From assembly GCA_903931355.1 (NCBI GenBank), contig CAIZCB010000194.1, forward strand, positions 1 to 12,519: DNA of 12,519 nucleotides, given 5' to 3'. The DNA is from an uncultured Pseudomonadota bacterium. Lineage in GTDB: Bacteria; Pseudomonadota; Gammaproteobacteria; Methylococcales; Methylomonadaceae. The stretch's first letter is position 1; every line of letters begins with the position of its first letter. The position numbers were made by a program, and so were the translations under genes. The notes beneath the pieces were generated by a model. It saw only the letters and a list, made by a program, of their open reading frames with translations. It did no database searches and had not been told where the DNA came from. Shown here piece after piece: positions 1,178 through 12,501 of this stretch.

Positions 1178-1211
1178 AAAAAAAACCTCCCAGTGCTTAC
1201 GCAGTGGAAGG
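1178..1211 (-). terminator. Intrinsic terminator of the small-ORF/anti-SD RNA unit
   Basis: Read on the minus strand, an 11-position stem (CCTTCCACTGC with GCACTGGGAGG, one C-C mismatch and one G-T pair) is closed by a GTAA tetraloop, a GNRA type. Eight T follow directly (A run at 1178-1185 on the plus strand). This is a classical Rho-independent terminator and it defines the 3' end of the transcript from the 50-codon ORF. Confidence 0.85.
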
Positions 1212-1280
1212 CAAAAAACCAAGCAGAATGCTATGAGGAGGGTCTGCTAGTTATTACAACACCAGGAGGTAGTTACAAAT
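1178..1280 (-). ncRNA. Putative 3'-UTR-derived regulatory RNA with anti-Shine-Dalgarno loops
   Basis: Directly after the stop codon of the 50-codon ORF the minus strand can fold into three consecutive hairpins. Hairpin 1 (1278-1254) pairs TTGTAAC with GTTGTAA (two G-T pairs) around an 11-nt loop, TACCTCCTGGT. Hairpin 2 (1248-1222) pairs AGCAGA with TCTGCT around a 15-nt loop that starts CCCTCCTC. Hairpin 3 is the terminator with its eight-T tail. Both upper loops display CCUCCU, complementary to Shine-Dalgarno sequences. The arrangement of small ORF, CCUCC-loop hairpins and terminator resembles, from memory, the CcsR/'cuckoo' RNAs of alphaproteobacteria such as Rhodobacter, which lie downstream of a small DUF1127 protein. 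The protein here is not of that arginine-rich type. No expression evidence is available. Alternatively these are ordinary 3'-UTR stem-loops. Confidence 0.5.
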
Positions 1281-1287
1281 TTGGAGC

Positions 1288-1440
1288 TTAGCTGTTTGAT
1301 GAAGCTATGCTGGCAATGTTGGTAAACATTGAGGCAGTGGCGAAAAGCACTGCAGAGATGACGAAGAGTCCAGAAATGAAGCTTGAGATGCCGGCGATAT
1401 ACAATGCGCCTACTAAGATGTCTTTACTTAAGTTGTTCAT
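1288..1440 (-). CDS. Small hydrophobic (probably single-span membrane) protein, 50 residues
   Basis: This is a short ORF of 50 codons plus stop starting at ATG 1440. Residues 8-37 are almost entirely hydrophobic or small (segment ILVGALYIAGISSF followed by ISGLFVISAVLF), enough for one membrane helix or a tight hairpin. The N-terminus (MNNLSKD) is short and polar, and the tail (NIASIASSNS) is Ser/Asn-rich. An AAAGGA ribosome-binding sequence sits about 6 nt before the start. Codon choice (GGC, ATC, GCC mixed with TTA, AGT) is ordinary. A plausible promoter lies upstream and a strong terminator downstream, so this is an independent unit and not part of the hisE operon. I do not recognise a family. 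It is divergent from a LysR-type regulator, which may control it. A non-coding leader for the downstream hairpins is the main alternative. Confidence 0.65.
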   Translation of the reverse strand: MNNLSKDILVGALYIAGISSFISGLFVISAVLFATASMFTNIASIASSNS

Positions 1441-1505: not shown

Positions 1506-1533
1506 ACTATACAGCATAAACATAAGTTTACAA
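1506..1533 (-). promoter_or_regulatory. Predicted promoter of the small-ORF/anti-SD RNA unit
   Basis: On the minus strand TTGTAA (1533-1528) and TATAGT (1511-1506) are separated by 16 nt. The -10 matches sigma70 consensus at five of six positions and the -35 at four of six. Transcription would start near 1499, giving a leader of about 60 nt that contains the 1456-1475 hairpin. The prediction rests on sequence resemblance only. Confidence 0.45.
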
Positions 1534-1551: not shown

Positions 1552-1565
1552 AATTGTATACAATT
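1552..1565. promoter_or_regulatory. Perfect 14-bp palindrome, candidate LysR-type operator
   Basis: AATTGTATACAATT is a perfect palindrome in the divergent intergenic region, 54 bp before the LysR-type gene. It fits the LysR-box form T-N11-A (T at 1554, A at 1566). Its right half TACAATTA (1559-1566) recurs exactly 30 bp away at 1529-1536, where it overlaps the predicted -35 of the divergent small ORF. This arrangement suits a LysR-type protein that represses itself and controls its divergent neighbour, but binding is inferred. Confidence 0.45.
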
Positions 1566-1580
1566 AAGAAACAATAAAAA

Positions 1581-1618: not shown

Positions 1619-2524
1619 ATGGACAAATTAACTAGCATGAACGTGTTTGTGCGCGTCGCCAAAGCCGGAAGCTTTGCCGGTGCAGCCAAGGATTTGGACA
1701 TTTCCCGCGCCATGGCAACCAAACACATTATGCAGCTGGAAAACGAACTCAACACCCGTTTATTCAACCGCACTACCCGTAGCTTAAGCCTAACCGAAGC
1801 CGGTGAAGAATATTTAGATCGCTGCCAACAGGTGCTTTTAGACGTTGATGAAATGGAATCGGCTGTCACCAAATTACAAACCGAACCGCGTGGCATTTTA
1901 AAAATCTGCGCGCCACCAGTGATTGGTGCGACACACATTTCCCCCGCCATGACTGATTATCTTAAAAACTATCCCGACCTATCAGTGGAAATGGTTTTAA
2001 AAGGCGGTCAGGTCGATTTAATTGATGAAGGCGTCGATATTGCGATTTATCTTGGCCAATTAAATGACACCAGTTTAGTGGCACGGAAAATTGCCACTTC
2101 ATCTCTAGTCGTTTGCGCATCACCGGAATATCTAAAAACCCACGGTACCCCGCAAGACCCAGAAGACTTGGAAAATCACAGCTGCTTAATCAACTGGGCG
2201 ATCCCACCACGTAATAAATGGCGCTTTAAAGGTATCCTCGGTGAACGGATGGTTAAAGTCACCGGCCGAATGCAAGCGAATATGGCCGACCCAATCCGTA
2301 ATGCGGCGGTTAACGGCTTAGGGGTGATTATGCTGCCCCGCTACATCGTTGGTCGCGATATTGAACTGGGTCGGCTGGAAGTGATCATGGAACAATACGG
2401 CATTGCCCCGCTGGAAATTTACGCGGTTTATCCACACCGTAAATATTTATCCGCTAAAGTCCGTTCGTTTTTGGAATTTATCCAAGACTGGCTACCGCAC
2501 CGGATTGGCATGGATCCACCTTAG
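1619..2524 (+). CDS. LysR-type transcriptional regulator
   Basis: This is a 301-residue cytoplasmic DNA-binding regulator of the usual LysR length. The N-terminal winged helix-turn-helix (about residues 1-60) is typical: MNVFVRVAKAGSFAGAAKDL, then the recognition helix region and the wing LFNRTTRSLSLTEAGEEYL. A linker helix (about 62-88) leads to the effector-binding domain (about 90-295), which contains the family features VDIAIYLG and NGLGVIMLP. The overall style, including NRTTRSLSLTEAG and a Cys-Ala-Pro-Pro start of the sensor domain, resembles the CrgA/AaeR-like branch. Neither ligand nor targets can be read from the sequence. AAGGGAG precedes the ATG by 7 nt. It is divergent from the 50-codon ORF and shares with it a region rich in palindromes, so autoregulation and control of that neighbour are plausible. 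Confidence 0.93.
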   Translation: MDKLTSMNVFVRVAKAGSFAGAAKDLDISRAMATKHIMQLENELNTRLFNRTTRSLSLTEAGEEYLDRCQQVLLDVDEMESAVTKLQTEPRGILKICAPPVIGATHISPAMTDYLKNYPDLSVEMVLKGGQVDLIDEGVDIAIYLGQLNDTSLVARKIATSSLVVCASPEYLKTHGTPQDPEDLENHSCLINWAIPPRNKWRFKGILGERMVKVTGRMQANMADPIRNAAVNGLGVIMLPRYIVGRDIELGRLEVIMEQYGIAPLEIYAVYPHRKYLSAKVRSFLEFIQDWLPHRIGMDPP

Positions 2525-2752: not shown

Positions 2753-3145
2753 ATGATAGAAAACCTCGACCCAAAACAAGCTTGGGACTTATTACAAAGT
2801 AATCCAGCTGCTGTGCTGATTGATGTCAGAACTGCGATTGAACACGGCTTTGTTGGCCATCCACTAAAAGCGATTCATGTCGCTTGGAAAGAGTTTCCTG
2901 GTATGCAGCTCAACGCTAATTTTGTTAATCAAGTTCAACAACATGCCAGCGACAAAAGTGCACCGGTTCTTTTACTTTGCCGTACCGGTGTGCGTTCAGT
3001 TGAAGCCGCCAAAGCTTTAGAAGCTGCAGGCTATCAACATTTAATTAATATCGTTCAAGGCTTTGAAGGTGCATTAGACGAAAACAAACACCGTGGCAAC
3101 ATCGACGGCTGGCGTTTTCACGGCCTACCTTGGCAACAAAGCTAA
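2753..3145 (+). CDS. Single-domain rhodanese-like sulfurtransferase
   Basis: This 130-residue cytoplasmic protein has one rhodanese domain. Such proteins carry a persulfide on the active-site cysteine and move sulfur to cyanide or other acceptors. The visible features are the N-terminal helix (NLDPKQAWDLLQ), the strand-turn LIDVRTAIEHGFVGHP (22-37) and the active-site loop CRTGVRS with Cys76 (76-82). The loop length is that of sulfurtransferases, not Cdc25-type phosphatases. A C-terminal GWRFHGLPW segment is common in proteobacterial homologues. There is no signal peptide. GGAG precedes the ATG by 9 nt. typA begins 68 nt downstream on the same strand, so the two may share the promoter at 2576-2603. 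The physiological acceptor is unknown. Confidence 0.9.
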   Translation: MIENLDPKQAWDLLQSNPAAVLIDVRTAIEHGFVGHPLKAIHVAWKEFPGMQLNANFVNQVQQHASDKSAPVLLLCRTGVRSVEAAKALEAAGYQHLINIVQGFEGALDENKHRGNIDGWRFHGLPWQQS

Positions 3146-5094: not shown

Positions 5095-8000
5095 TTAATC
5101 CCTCACCCCAAACCAAGCCGCATACAAAGCCGGTAAAAACAGTAAGGTCAACGCTGTCGCGACCATCAACCCACCCATAATCGCTACCGCCATCGGTCCG
5201 AAAAATGCGCTTTGCGTTAATGGAATCATAGCTAAAATTGCAGCCGCAGCAGTCAATACAATCGGCCTAAACCGCCGCACGGTAGAATCGACTATCGCCT
5301 CTAAATCAGAATGCCCCGCCTGTTTATCTTGATCAATCTGATCGACCAAAATCACCGAGTTACGCATAATCATTCCCGATAAAGCGATGGTGCCAAGCAT
5401 GGCCACGAAGCCGAATGGCTGGTGAAATATCAGTAAAAACAAGGTCACCCCGATCATTCCTAACGGTGCGGTCAACAATACCAAGGCCACCCGTGCAAAG
5501 CTTTGCAACTGAATCATCAATACGGTTAACACACTAAACAAAAACAACGGCATCCCCGCCGCTACCGAACTACCGCCTTTGGCCGATTCTTCCACCGCAC
5601 CGCCGGTTTCCAGATAATAACCAATAGGCAAACTGGCTTTAATCGTTGCCAATTCTGATTCAACTTGCGCTGAAACTGTTGGTGCTTGAGTTTTGCCGTA
5701 AACATGAGCACGTACAGTGATAGTTGGAATCCGGTTGCGCCGCCAAATCACACCTTCCTCAAAACCATAATCAAAACTAGCGATTTGCGACAACGGCACA
5801 CTTTGACCCGTAGCGGTGTAAATCATCAAACTCTGCAAGCGCGATAAACGCTGACGCTCAGCTTCCATCCCACGGATAACCACATCAATTCGCTCAATCC
5901 CTTCGCGAAATTCGGTGACATATAAACCTTGCCAAGCACCGTTAATTAAATTGGCGATTTGACTGGATGACACGCCTAACAAACGCGCTTTAGATTGATC
6001 AATATTGACCTGCACCACCTTCACCGGCTCATCCCAGTCCAATTGCACATTGGATAAATTAGGATTAGCCCGCATCACATCCGCCACTTGCCGAGCTACA
6101 CCGCGCAAGGTTTGCAAATCTGGCCCGGAAACACGAAATTGCACCGGAAAACCCACCGGCGGGCCATTTTCTAAACGCAAAACGCTGGCACGTAAGCTGG
6201 GAAAATCGTTTTCAAACAAGGCCAATAACTGTAATCGCAGTTGTTCGCGTTGCTTGGGGCCTTCGGTCAAAATCACCACTTGGGCAAAACTACGCTGCGG
6301 CATTTGTTGATCTAAAGGCAGATAAAAGCGCGGGCTACCCGTGCCGATATAGGCCACATAATTTTCAATACCGCTTTGTTTTTCCAACCACGCTTCCAAT
6401 TTTTTAACTTCGCTGGCACTAGCATCAAACGATGCGCCTTCGGCTAAGCGTAAATCGACAATGATTTCTGGCCGCGTTGAATCAGGAAAGAACTGCTGCT
6501 GAACGTATTTAAAACCAAAAATCGACAAGGCAAAAATCACCACTGTAATCGCAATCACCCACCAACGATTCTTAACACAAGCGGTCACTAAGCCCCGAAA
6601 ACGCTGATAAAAACTGCTTTGATATAAATCATGGTGGCTGTGTTGAGGAATCGGTAACGGCTTGCGACGCATCCGCGCCCACCAAGTTTGCATAACACTG
6701 GCTTGTGGAGCATGGTCACTTAAATCCGGTAACAGCCGATAACCCAAATACGGCACGACGATCACCGCCGCTAACCAAGACACCAATAAAGCAATCACCA
6801 CCACTTGAAATATCGAGCGGGTGTATTCGCCAGTGGACGATGCAGCGGTAGCAATCGGTAAAAAACCAGCGGCAGTGACTAAAGTACCACTGAGCATCGG
6901 CATGGCGGTCGATGTATAAGCAAACGCCGCCGCTTTACCACGCTCCCAGCCTTGCTCCATTTTTGAAGCCATCATTTCAACGGCAATAATCGCGTCATCG
7001 ACCAATAAACCCAGCGCCAAAATCAAAGCACCCAGCGAGATTTTATGTAACCCAACGCCAAACAAGTACATCAACCAAAACGTCACCGCCAATACAATCG
7101 GAATACTAATCGCCACCACAATCCCGCTGCGTAACCCCAATGACAACAAACTCACTGCCAACACGATCACCACCGCTTCGGTCAGCGATTTCACAAATTC
7201 GTGCACCGAATTTTTTACGGCTCTCGGCTGCGAAGACACCATTTGTAACTGCAAACCAACCGGTAATTGCGCTTGGATTTTGGCAACCGCTGCATCCAAA
7301 TCAAGACCAAGCTTAATAATATCGCCACCCTGCCGCATCGAAACACCCATCAATAACGCCTCTTGGCCCATGAATCGCACTCGCTCTTTAGTCGGTTGTT
7401 CATAACCGCGCTTGACGGTTGCCACATCACCGAGACGAAATTCACTGTTCCGAGTACCTAAACGTACTTCTCGTATTTGCTGTAAATCATCATAAGTGCC
7501 AGACACATCAAATCGAATATGCTCATCGGCCGAATCATAAGCGCCTGCAGCTGCCATCAGGTTTTGCGCCTGTAGCATTTGTAAAAACGTGGCGGTATCG
7601 ATGCCAAAGGTGGCTAATTTGGCATTGGATAATTCGATATAAATCTTTTGGCTTTGCTCACCAAAAAAATCGACTTTGCCAACATTGGCGACCCTTAATA
7701 ACTCCGCTCGCACCACATCGGCTTGGCGTTTCAGCTCAGCATCGTCGTAGCCTTGACCACTTAAAGCGTACAAATTGCCGTAAACATCACCAAATTCATC
7801 ATTAAAAATCGGGCCTTGGACACCATTAGGTAAGGTGTAACGAATGTCGCCGATTTTTTTGCGGGCTTGATACCAAATATTTGGAATTTCGCTAGGCAGT
7901 GCCGAATCTTTAGCTTGCAGGAAAATCAACGATTCACCAGCGCGGGAGTAACTTTTCAGCACATCCAGCCACGGTACTTCTTGCAGTTTTTTCTCTAATT

Positions 8001-8205
8001 TATCGGTGAGTTGTTGCTCTACCTCTAAAGCATTCGCCCCCGGCCAAGCACTACGAATCACCATCACTTTAAAGGTAAATGGTGGATCTTCCGATTGCCC
8101 CAGCTTGCTATAAGAAGCCATGCCAATAATGGTTAGCGCCAGCATTGCATACAACACCAACGCCGGATGCCGCAACGACCATTCGGATAAATTAAAGCTT
8201 TTCAT
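5095..8205 (-). CDS. RND-family efflux pump, inner-membrane permease (TriC-like)
   Basis: This 1036-residue protein is a proton-driven pump of the resistance-nodulation-division superfamily. It takes substrates from the periplasm and inner membrane and passes them to an outer-membrane channel. It has the twofold RND plan: an N-terminal helix after LSEWSLRHPALVLY, a large periplasmic loop, a membrane block, a second loop and a second block, twelve membrane segments in all. The proton-relay aspartates are D403-D404 (GLLVDDAIIAVE). The lysine usual in segment 10 of AcrB (K940) is replaced by arginine (about R948, in SGMIMRNSVILVDQI), which may be a subfamily trait. The N-terminal block EDPPFTFKVMVI and WPGA resembles TriC-type pumps, but substrates cannot be assigned. 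Its ATG overlaps the stop of the membrane-fusion protein gene (TAATG). No TolC-like channel gene is nearby, so a channel encoded elsewhere is expected. Confidence 0.95.
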   Translation of the reverse strand: MKSFNLSEWSLRHPALVLYAMLALTIIGMASYSKLGQSEDPPFTFKVMVIRSAWPGANALEVEQQLTDKLEKKLQEVPWLDVLKSYSRAGESLIFLQAKDSALPSEIPNIWYQARKKIGDIRYTLPNGVQGPIFNDEFGDVYGNLYALSGQGYDDAELKRQADVVRAELLRVANVGKVDFFGEQSQKIYIELSNAKLATFGIDTATFLQMLQAQNLMAAAGAYDSADEHIRFDVSGTYDDLQQIREVRLGTRNSEFRLGDVATVKRGYEQPTKERVRFMGQEALLMGVSMRQGGDIIKLGLDLDAAVAKIQAQLPVGLQLQMVSSQPRAVKNSVHEFVKSLTEAVVIVLAVSLLSLGLRSGIVVAISIPIVLAVTFWLMYLFGVGLHKISLGALILALGLLVDDAIIAVEMMASKMEQGWERGKAAAFAYTSTAMPMLSGTLVTAAGFLPIATAASSTGEYTRSIFQVVVIALLVSWLAAVIVVPYLGYRLLPDLSDHAPQASVMQTWWARMRRKPLPIPQHSHHDLYQSSFYQRFRGLVTACVKNRWWVIAITVVIFALSIFGFKYVQQQFFPDSTRPEIIVDLRLAEGASFDASASEVKKLEAWLEKQSGIENYVAYIGTGSPRFYLPLDQQMPQRSFAQVVILTEGPKQREQLRLQLLALFENDFPSLRASVLRLENGPPVGFPVQFRVSGPDLQTLRGVARQVADVMRANPNLSNVQLDWDEPVKVVQVNIDQSKARLLGVSSSQIANLINGAWQGLYVTEFREGIERIDVVIRGMEAERQRLSRLQSLMIYTATGQSVPLSQIASFDYGFEEGVIWRRNRIPTITVRAHVYGKTQAPTVSAQVESELATIKASLPIGYYLETGGAVEESAKGGSSVAAGMPLFLFSVLTVLMIQLQSFARVALVLLTAPLGMIGVTLFLLIFHQPFGFVAMLGTIALSGMIMRNSVILVDQIDQDKQAGHSDLEAIVDSTVRRFRPIVLTAAAAILAMIPLTQSAFFGPMAVAIMGGLMVATALTLLFLPALYAAWFGVRD

Positions 8206-9275
8206 TATTCGCTCCGCACTACCGGTGTTGGTCTTACCACTTGACCTGGCACCAAGGTTTGTAACCCTGCAATCACCACTTGATCACCCGCTTGCAAGCC
8301 CTGACTAATCAACACCCCATCTTCACGAAACCCAGCAATTTGCACCGGTTTTGGCTGAACTTCGCCATTTTCAGTGTTGACTACCCACACCACCGATTGC
8401 CCATCACGTTGTGTAACGCCTGTCATCGGCAATAACCAATCATGCGAATTTTGATAATAAAAACGTACTCCAGCGGTCATACCTAATCGCATCACACGAC
8501 TATCAACCTCACCTAATGCCACGCGAACACGAAAAGTTCGCGTCACACTCTCTGCAGCAGGGGCAACTTCTCTAACTTTGGCGGGATAAACGGTTTTCGG
8601 ATCAGTCCACAACCGTACTTCCGCTGCCGTGCCAACCGCCACGCCATCCATCCGCGATTCCGGCACAGCAATCGCTACTTCCATCTCACGTGGCATGGCA
8701 ATATGCACCACAGGATCCCCGGCAATAACCACTTGCCCCGGCTCGGCCCGAATCTCGGTCACCACCCCATCACGTTCAGCCACTAATTGCGTGTAATTAG
8801 ATTGATTGCCACTGACTGCCGCTTGCGCTTTAACCTGCTTAACCCTTGCAGCCGCGGCTTTGAATTTTGCTTCTTGAATTTCTAAAGCTTGAGTGGCGAC
8901 AAATTTGCGTTGGTGTAATTGACGGTATCTATCTAGCTCAGCTTGTGCCAAATCTAAATCAGCTTCGGCAGCTTTAACTTCTGCTTGTGCAGCTTGGCTG
9001 GTTAAACCAGTATCAATGCTGTCCAGTTTGGCCAACACTTGGCCTTTTTTAACTTCGCTACCGACATCAACTAATCGCTGAATAATTTTGCCGTCGATTC
9101 TAAAACCTTGGGCGGTTTCATAACGGGAACGGATTTCACCGACTAAAGCCATCGGAGTAGCCGTTGTCTGTTCTCCAACGCTAACCACTAGCGCCGGACG
9201 AGGCACTGGTGGTGCAGGTGGTGTTTGCTCGCAAGCAGTTAACACCATCACCAAAACGGCTAATAGATAACGCAT
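8205..9275 (-). CDS. RND efflux periplasmic adaptor (membrane-fusion lipoprotein)
   Basis: This 356-residue adaptor links the RND pump to an outer-membrane channel. The N-terminus MRYLLAVLVMVLTAC is a lipoprotein signal with lipobox LTAC and Cys15, so the mature protein should be lipid-anchored in the periplasm. After a Pro-rich spacer come the first half of the lipoyl-like domain (GFRIDGKIIQRLVDVGSEV), an Ala/Gln/Glu-rich alpha-helical hairpin (about residues 93-155) and the second lipoyl half (AERDGVVTEIRAEPGQVV). A beta-barrel and a membrane-proximal domain ending in GLQAGDQVVIAGLQTLVPGQ complete the adaptor plan. AAGGAG lies 6-7 nt before the ATG. The stop shares one base with the pump's start, giving translational coupling. 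Unlike triclosan-type loci with two adaptors, only one is present. No regulator gene is adjacent. Confidence 0.94.
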   Translation of the reverse strand: MRYLLAVLVMVLTACEQTPPAPPVPRPALVVSVGEQTTATPMALVGEIRSRYETAQGFRIDGKIIQRLVDVGSEVKKGQVLAKLDSIDTGLTSQAAQAEVKAAEADLDLAQAELDRYRQLHQRKFVATQALEIQEAKFKAAAARVKQVKAQAAVSGNQSNYTQLVAERDGVVTEIRAEPGQVVIAGDPVVHIAMPREMEVAIAVPESRMDGVAVGTAAEVRLWTDPKTVYPAKVREVAPAAESVTRTFRVRVALGEVDSRVMRLGMTAGVRFYYQNSHDWLLPMTGVTQRDGQSVVWVVNTENGEVQPKPVQIAGFREDGVLISQGLQAGDQVVIAGLQTLVPGQVVRPTPVVRSE

Positions 9276-10046: not shown

Positions 10047-10298
10047 ATGGACACTATCAGTTACTCAAATTTCCGCAGTCATTTAGCTGGTACTTTAGAT
10101 AAAGTCAATGACGATCATGTCCCCGTATTAATCACCCGACAAAATGGCAAACCGGCGGTATTAATTTCTCTGGAAGACTTTAAGTCCTACGAAGAAACTG
10201 CTTATTTAATGGCCAGCCCCAAAAATGCAATGCGTTTAAATCAAGCCATCGCTGAAATTGAAGCAGGAAACATCACTGAACACAGATTATTAGAATAA
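10047..10298 (+). CDS. yefM: Type II antitoxin, Phd/YefM family
   Basis: This 83-residue antitoxin should bind and neutralise the YoeB toxin encoded next to it and repress the operon with it. The N-terminal Phd/YefM fold (about residues 1-55) has the typical start TISYSNFRSHLAGTLDKVNDDHVPVLITR and the NGKPAVLISLEDFKSYEET block, each within the family pattern. The acidic C-terminal part (about 56-83) is the toxin-wrapping tail, disordered when free. No strong Shine-Dalgarno sequence precedes the ATG. The stop overlaps the toxin's start by one base (TAATG), a coupling common in these operons. The inverted repeat at 10001-10026 is the likely autoregulatory site. Confidence 0.94.
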   Translation: MDTISYSNFRSHLAGTLDKVNDDHVPVLITRQNGKPAVLISLEDFKSYEETAYLMASPKNAMRLNQAIAEIEAGNITEHRLLE

Positions 10299-10552
10299 TG
10301 ATTTTGTCTTGGGCTGAGACAGCATGGGAAGATTATTTGTATTGGCAAGCAAACGATAAAAAATTACTTAAACGTATCAATTTGCTAATTACCGATATTC
10401 AACGTCATCCTTTTTCAGGTTTAGGCGATCCAGAACCCCTTCGACATAATTGGACTGGTTATTGGTCTCGCCGCATCGACCGCGAACACCGTATCGTTTA
10501 TAAAGCCACCGATAACAGCATCATCATTGCCCAATGCCGCTATCACTATTAA
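10298..10552 (+). CDS. yoeB: mRNA interferase toxin YoeB
   Basis: YoeB is a ribosome-dependent endoribonuclease of the RelE/ParE superfamily that cuts mRNA in the A site when the antitoxin is degraded. The product has 84 residues, the same as E. coli YoeB. It keeps the key residues at the same positions: Glu46 (PEPL), Arg65 (EHRIVY) and the C-terminal CRYHY with His83 and Tyr84. The middle motif GYWSRRI is also typical. The toxin therefore looks intact. It starts inside the antitoxin stop (TAATG). Its last 4 nt overlap the end of the convergent rmuC gene, and no terminator lies between them, so the two mRNAs are likely to overlap. Confidence 0.96.
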   Translation: MILSWAETAWEDYLYWQANDKKLLKRINLLITDIQRHPFSGLGDPEPLRHNWTGYWSRRIDREHRIVYKATDNSIIIAQCRYHY

Positions 10553-11961: not shown

Positions 11962-12501
11962 TCATAGCCATTCCCCCAAATCGATACCCAAAGGCTCTAT
12001 TGCCACACCACCCCAATCCACCGAATAAACACCAGTTTTGACTAAGTTATGAAAGCTAGAAAATGGCCACTCCCTAACTGATTTAGCCCAACCATGTTTC
12101 ACCGGATTGTAATGTAGGTAATCCATATGGGCAGCATAATCGGCTTCATCACGAATTGTGTGCTCCCAAAAACGCCTTTGCCAAATACCGCGTTCGTGAC
12201 GACGAATTTGCACCTCGGAACGCGATTCGATCTTAGGAATAGTTTTAGAAAACGCTTTTTTGATTGCCTGCCAGCGTTGTGAATAGCAGTCATCGTCCGG
12301 AGGTAAAGTCCAAATAGTGTGCATATGTTCAGGTAACACCACCCAACCGTCGATATGAAATGGATGTTGTCGCCGAACTGCACGAACAGCCTCACGCAAT
12401 TCAGCAATGTGATCAATTAACAAAGTTGATTTTCGGTCATGCAAATTCACAGTGAAAAAATAAGTGCCGCCGAGAACACGATTTCGATGGTAATTAGGCA
12501 T
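11962..12501 (-). CDS. REP-associated tyrosine transposase (RAYT, TnpA-REP family)
   Basis: RAYTs are single-copy HUH/Y1 relatives of IS200/IS605 transposases that nick REP hairpins and are thought to spread them. The 179-residue product has the usual length and motifs in order: [17 protein letters not shown] at the start, the metal-binding HUH motif His-Met-His (59-61, in LPEHMHTIW), [15 protein letters not shown] (105-119) and [11 protein letters not shown] (127-137). The nucleophilic tyrosine is expected in that last motif. All look intact, so the enzyme could be active. A REP with the GTAG guide lies 15 bp beyond its stop. The start ATG at 12501 has no clear Shine-Dalgarno sequence in the 18 nt visible upstream. 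No terminal inverted repeats or target duplications of an insertion sequence are seen. Confidence 0.94.

Follow-up and report, generated by a model that had tools for sequence, protein, structure and literature searches.

RNAs with anti-Shine-Dalgarno (anti-SD) sequences in hairpins are a kind already known. Three described systems come closest to the present locus. In the Rhizobiales, NfeR1 has three hairpins with the motif CCUCCUCCC, is activated by the LysR regulator LsrB and silences ntrBC by base pairing where its translation starts (PMC10746234). In Rhodobacter, CcsR/cuckoo with CcaF1 is a stress-linked arrangement in which one transcript carries a small-protein gene, several sRNAs and a terminator (PMC10253847). 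The operon watR-smtM-rstM of Methylomonas sp. DH-1 begins with the LysR gene watR; lactate tolerance went together with the loss of 2 bp from the gap in front of watR, and a cassette without watR gave no lactate tolerance (PMC6767647). WatR binds ATTGTT-N11-AACAA and, in the acetate response, controls an RND pump together with five smORFs, watS1-5, that had not been annotated; the words sRNA and UTR are absent from the main text of that study (PMC10355033).

The locus described here lies in a window of 12,519 nt (contig CAIZCB010000194.1, from an uncultured member of the Methylomonadaceae), and it shares some features with each of these. With NfeR1 and alpha-r14 (SmelA075) these are tandem hairpins, an unpaired anti-SD sequence, variable stems and, probably, LysR control (PMC10746234, PMC3927594), but those RNAs belong to Alphaproteobacteria and carry CCUCCUCCC in three hairpins, whereas here the motif is CCUCCU, in two hairpins, and a peptide gene usually comes first. 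With CcsR/CcaF1 it shares the arrangement of small-protein gene and sRNA, but CcaF1 is a 71-aa RNA-binding protein with DUF1127 (PMC10253847), and the window protein is hydrophobic, with no match in Pfam (E 1) or NCBIfam, so that it has no DUF1127. With WatR-WatS it very probably has the regulator in common, and also the DNA motif; its peptide is of a similar kind, about 50 aa with one transmembrane segment (PMC10355033, PMC6767647).

An earlier note on this DNA had proposed a dual-function mRNA/sRNA analogous to the cuckoo RNAs. The analogy holds to the extent that the 3' UTR contains a structured RNA and that the protein encoded before it, hydrophobic and unrelated, is under coding selection, and the general feature of several hairpins with diverging stems and an anti-SD sequence in an unpaired loop is present, in two such hairpins. 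Membership of the cuckoo/CcsR/alpha-r14 group was rejected, since the partner protein differs, the loop motif CCUCCUCCC is absent from the window RNA, and no family of that group was found in Rfam at an E-value of 5 or better. No Rfam family at all matched the window RNA above its gathering cut-off; the lowest E-value below the cut-off belonged to Hrs13 (19.4 bits against 52 needed, E 0.0074) and was treated as chance. Our preferred reading, with a probability of roughly 0.6, is that the locus specifies a WatR-controlled dual-function mRNA/sRNA that would block ribosome-binding sites, like NfeR1 in its action and yet outside the NfeR1 family. It draws on comparative evidence for structure, conservation, exposed loops, WatR-type sites and independence of the RNA from the ORF.

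Fold of the RNA

Three hairpins, the last of them an intrinsic terminator, follow the stop codon of a 50-codon ORF on the minus strand (Table 1). The earlier note had read them in the same way, with CCUCCU in both of the first two loops and a terminator with a GTAA loop and eight T, and both folding and coordinates agree with that description.

Table 1. Features at the locus, with positions numbered along the window.
Feature	Position	Strand	Remarks
Structured RNA, type A (model R1)	1178..1281	-	about 104 nt; terminator preceded by two hairpins with CCUCC
Hairpin 1	1254..1278	-	UUGUAAC-U-ACC[UCCU]GGU-GUUGUAA; CCUCCU at 1264-1269
Hairpin 2	1217..1252	-	covarying stem; CCUCCU in loop at 1236-1241; followed by U6
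Intrinsic terminator	1178..1212	-	CCUUCCACUGC-GUAA-GCACUGGGAGG-U8; covarying stem at 1185-1212
Small ORF	1288..1440	-	50 aa, hydrophobic, WatS-like peptide
Promoter-like sequence	1506..1533	-	-35 TTGTAA (1528-1533), -10 TATAGT (1506-1511), 16-nt spacer; read from the sequence
Predicted WatR site	1554..1575	-	ATTGTT-N11-TACAA; one mismatch to the published ATTGTT-N11-AACAA
Probable watR orthologue	1619..2524	+	LysR-type regulator; transcript with small ORF and RNA runs divergently
rstM of the watR operon, presumably rhodanese-like	2753..3145	+	from operon order

The RNA has a minimum free energy (MFE) of -29.6 kcal/mol (z = -2.47), and 4 of 200 shuffled sequences folded as stably or more so. 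One correction to the note concerns hairpin 1: CCUCCU has its first two C paired across nearly the whole ensemble, and only the four bases after them are open. In the window loops the motif is followed by GG or CA. Hairpin 2 and the six U after it could act as a first terminator. A fold in which the hairpin-1 CCUCCU pairs with GGGAGG of the terminator arm, hiding the loop, had also been suggested. It is possible in the window, at 1.4 kcal/mol above the MFE, but two or more paired bases are expected in only one of the 41 copies of the structure alignment (see below), and a conserved alternative fold was therefore rejected. This pairing of hairpin 1 with the 3' arm of the terminator would suit an RNA that acts as leader or attenuator for the gene after it, hisE in Methylomonas, by changing from the terminator to the alternative fold and back. 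Such a role is very improbable given the single copy in which the pairing is appreciable, and given that 22 of the 94 loci fetched have a hisE match directly after the RNA and that, of the 40 selected with the covariance model, this is true only of L133-L135, which all belong to the same genus as the window. Since hisE is not conserved downstream, the hisE leader was rejected.

Conservation and spread in one methanotroph family

A covariance-model search, which the earlier note had proposed as a way to find further copies, yielded many: within a single family of methanotrophs, model R1 matches 177 of 237 genomes, from 26 of 29 genera, with one copy each in 35 of the 37 genomes of the genus set. 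There were no matches in 24 genomes of sister families, and only two in a class sample of 274, namely the window genome and one other of the same family. A 20-base pattern scanned against a collection of 84,980 species gave 54 stretches, all titled Methylomonas, Methylobacter, Methylovulum, Crenothrix, Methylococcaceae, Methylococcales or 'uncultured proteobacterium'. By these titles the genus is Methylomonas or a very close one. The element is probably a regulatory RNA that is conserved within a single family of methanotrophs, most likely the Methylomonadaceae. Among the literature matches listed (most subscription papers lying outside the coverage), no RNA of this type is described from gammaproteobacterial methanotrophs, and although the kind of RNA is already known, the lineage, the partner peptide and the regulon appear to be new.

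Within the genus, conservation was measured over 30 type-A loci, made up of 29 of the 30 best-hit loci and L058; the best hit left out, L030, is a paralogue with a related RNA that is not type A. The alignment of these loci (A1) keeps 21 rows after removal of nine identical copies. Pairwise identity is 0.89 over the RNA and 1.00 over its first 29 nt, which include hairpin 1 and are invariant in all 30 loci, against 0.50 in the spacer before the RNA, 0.55 in the 60 nt after it and 0.62 in the 100 nt before the ORF. The small ORF shows coding selection over the same loci, codon positions 1 and 2 being 0.83 identical and position 3 0.49. From these identities it follows that selection acts on the RNA as well as on the peptide.

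Outside the genus the stems change with pairing kept, and the UCCU core is mostly kept. This was followed in a structure alignment of 41 sequences (the 40 model-chosen loci and the window), which, being aligned to the model, is biased towards structure. Standard pairs fill 92.1% of its cells, compared with 32-48% in slid controls, two-sided changes occur at 19 of 27 pairs, and none of 500 shuffles reached any of the measures of pairing or covariation. UCCU is mostly unpaired at both places, with 0.94 for the first (n = 41) and 0.90 for the second (n = 35). Conservation and covariation together are strong evidence, from comparison of sequences, that the hairpins are more than chance and represent a real and conserved RNA.

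The loop motif itself was counted over distinct loci. The 94 loci fetched comprise 85 distinct ones (L166 is probably a further repeat, of L104), and 84 of the 85 could be parsed by hairpin, L166 running off its contig. Of these 84 loci, 75 keep CCUCC in hairpin 1 and 62 keep it in hairpin 2, the exact motif being lost in 9 and 22, respectively; hairpin 2 has UCCUC or CUCCU in 81. The 54 pattern-fetched loci have CCUCC in hairpin 1 by construction. The 40 model-chosen loci show CCUCC in hairpin 1 of 31 and in hairpin 2 of 26, in both hairpins of 18, and UCCUC or CUCCU in hairpin 2 of 37. From these counts, the exact five-base motif is often shorter outside the genus. The earlier note had looked to relatives for kept CCUCC loops and compensatory stem changes; the compensatory changes are there and CCUCC is mostly kept, with this shortening as the exception.

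The small gene, its paralogues and the WatR-type site

Matches to the small protein were found in all 37 genomes of the genus set, in several copies in most of them, and in 24 genomes of other families there was one weak match. In every locus where the ORF was found, the RNA lies directly downstream of it. This, together with the U6 after hairpin 2 in the window, would be expected if the hairpins were a cis element that merely terminates or stabilises the watS-like mRNA, or controls its own translation through its Shine-Dalgarno sequence. Against this, the ORF was not found by tblastn in 15 of the 94 loci (14 of the 85 distinct ones), all of which keep the RNA, and it is decayed or broken, again with the RNA kept, in L107, L108 and L149. 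In L119 and L120, -10-like boxes lie 52 and 45 nt upstream of the RNA, which leaves no space for this small gene. L129 and L136, second type-A copies in their genomes, have neither the small ORF nor a LysR/watR gene that could be found nearby and are apparently stand-alone RNA genes. Invariant loops, moreover, are not needed by terminators, and a purely cis-acting role is accordingly rather improbable. Loss of the ORF with the RNA kept argues that the element acts as an RNA, usually co-transcribed with the peptide, and, as the transcript usually encodes the peptide too, that it is a dual-function mRNA/sRNA of which the RNA alone is left in some lineages. In L149 (Methylomonas lenta), with its broken ORF, the promoter-like sequence, the LysR gene and the RNA are all kept.

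The peptide, of about 50 aa, is WatS-like and may belong to the WatS family; it has homologous paralogues with WatR-type sites. Paralogues with a start like MNKSNNLYRDI mostly have another 3' RNA, type B (alignment A3), which also exposes CCUCC and reads roughly UUGU.GUACCUCC..CGUUGU, followed by a hairpin and terminator; a few, such as L035, L041, L056 and L061, are without it. Model R2, for type B, matches 26 of 41 genomes, including 24 of 25 in the genus set with up to eight copies per genome, and two weak matches lie elsewhere. Its weak matches include the type-A loci of three genomes (G007, G013 and G014), which suggests that type-A and type-B RNAs are akin. Of 16 usable type-B loci, 15 have an ORF and one, L199, has none that was found. 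Type-B loci (L030-L070, L198-L227) occur several to a genome, downstream of watS-like paralogues, and the RNA of L199 is well kept without a watS-like ORF. In the copies examined of a third type of paralogue (MNDLQKDILNGLAF and similar), no tandem RNA of this sort was found.

Sequences resembling a promoter are found upstream of the RNA in relatives, with a TGTATAGT-like box in 57 of 67 loci scored as ORF-intact, a score given to 67 of 94 by a crude motif that undercounts and serves for promoter distance only. The WatR motif, with at most one mismatch, as in the window, occurs in 27 of the 30 type-A loci of the genus, 133-148 nt before the ORF (L003 offers only 60 nt of upstream sequence). Of 40 paralogue loci, 32 have it, usually near -116 or -100, the one at -51 in L057 being perhaps due to chance. 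In shuffled controls it turned up in 0-3 of 50 per locus. Among the wider type-A loci, chosen by pattern and model, the motif is found in only 57 of 88 (six loci with short upstream sequence were left out).

The LysR gene of the window is 91% identical to the copy in genome G002 and, because of operon order, is equated with WatR, the published weak-acid regulator, which it very probably is. The gene was found in 70 of the 85 distinct loci and is divergent in all 78 of the 94 where it was found; at least six of the 16 loci without it end within about 540 nt upstream. The order in G002 is tatC-tatB-tatA-hisE (names that we take to apply to these tat and his genes), small ORF, LysR, methyltransferase, rhodanese, and 454 nt separate the end of the RNA from the start of LysR. 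In the window, no methyltransferase lies between LysR and rhodanese (2524-2753), unlike in G002 (L196 6000-6578). A stretch like AACGTG-TTATGAT after the terminator (1130-1165), before hisE in the best-hit Methylomonas loci, is possibly a hisE promoter. Two genes near LysR (5095-9275) presumably code for a subunit of an RND pump and for the fusion protein that goes with it; two adjoining short ORFs (10047-10552) look to us like a YefM/YoeB toxin-antitoxin pair, and an ORF at 11962-12501 we take to resemble a REP-associated tyrosine transposase.

If, as we infer, G002 corresponds to strain DH-1, the 454 nt mean that the 500-bp watR promoter cassettes would also have included both the small ORF and its RNA (PMC6767647). 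ChIP was done in a strain with an altered watR promoter and did not detect the watR promoter, so that the ORF and RNA adjacent to watR are probably not among watS1-5 (PMC10355033).

Candidate targets and proposed action

In the proposed mechanism, transcription would start from the promoter divergent to watR and be controlled by WatR under weak-acid stress; the two exposed CCUCC/UCCUC loops would pair with strong Shine-Dalgarno sequences of a few mRNAs and block ribosome loading, as for rhizobial NfeR1. With related CCUCC RNAs after paralogous genes, a cell would hold several such RNAs. Transcription, processing, pairing with targets and a phenotype are predictions of this model.

Pairing with targets was examined in one genome (G025), using a 400-kb sample with first-ATG gene starts that gave 271 start regions, 10 of which contain GGAGG. 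Duplex energies were slightly better at start regions than in coding controls, both for the loop of hairpin 1 (-7.34 vs -6.86) and for that of hairpin 2 (-5.68 vs -4.70), and energies of -9 or lower were reached in 29.5% vs 22.5% and 13.3% vs 4.4%, respectively. Shuffled loops gave -6.60 (sd 0.49) and -5.87 (sd 0.55), so that in this sample the real loops are not clearly better than shuffled ones, and for this reason no target is claimed. One candidate site lies before an ORF that we take to be bacterioferritin-like. The energies and the rarity of GGAGG count against the preferred reading and fit either few targets or a protein partner.

The latter would be Hfq, a CsrA-type protein or another factor, with the CCUCC loops as a recognition or sponge motif and not an antisense seed. 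Besides the target energies, this has in its favour that the 29 invariant nt in the genus include the stem of hairpin 1, which goes beyond what an SD seed needs, and that Hfq is encoded in five of six genomes tested (it was not found in the window genome, which is incomplete). However, CsrA recognises GGA, which is absent from the loops, and stems that change with pairing kept around a mostly kept UCCU core outside the genus would also suit a seed. A protein-binding role is on balance unlikely, and pairing with ribosome-binding sites is preferred.

A wider view, which we offer tentatively, is that methanotrophs have a WatR regulon of dual transcripts, in which membrane peptides would tune an acid efflux pump and anti-SD RNAs would lower the translation of certain mRNAs; the RNAs would then account for some of the weak-acid phenotype of watS/watR manipulation. 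If the preferred reading is true, gammaproteobacterial methanotrophs would have a family-wide regulatory RNA next to a regulator altered in a lactate-tolerance evolution experiment, and the peptide-only model of acetate tolerance would become directly testable. It would also provide an independent, apparently convergent case of anti-SD hairpin RNAs near a LysR regulator.
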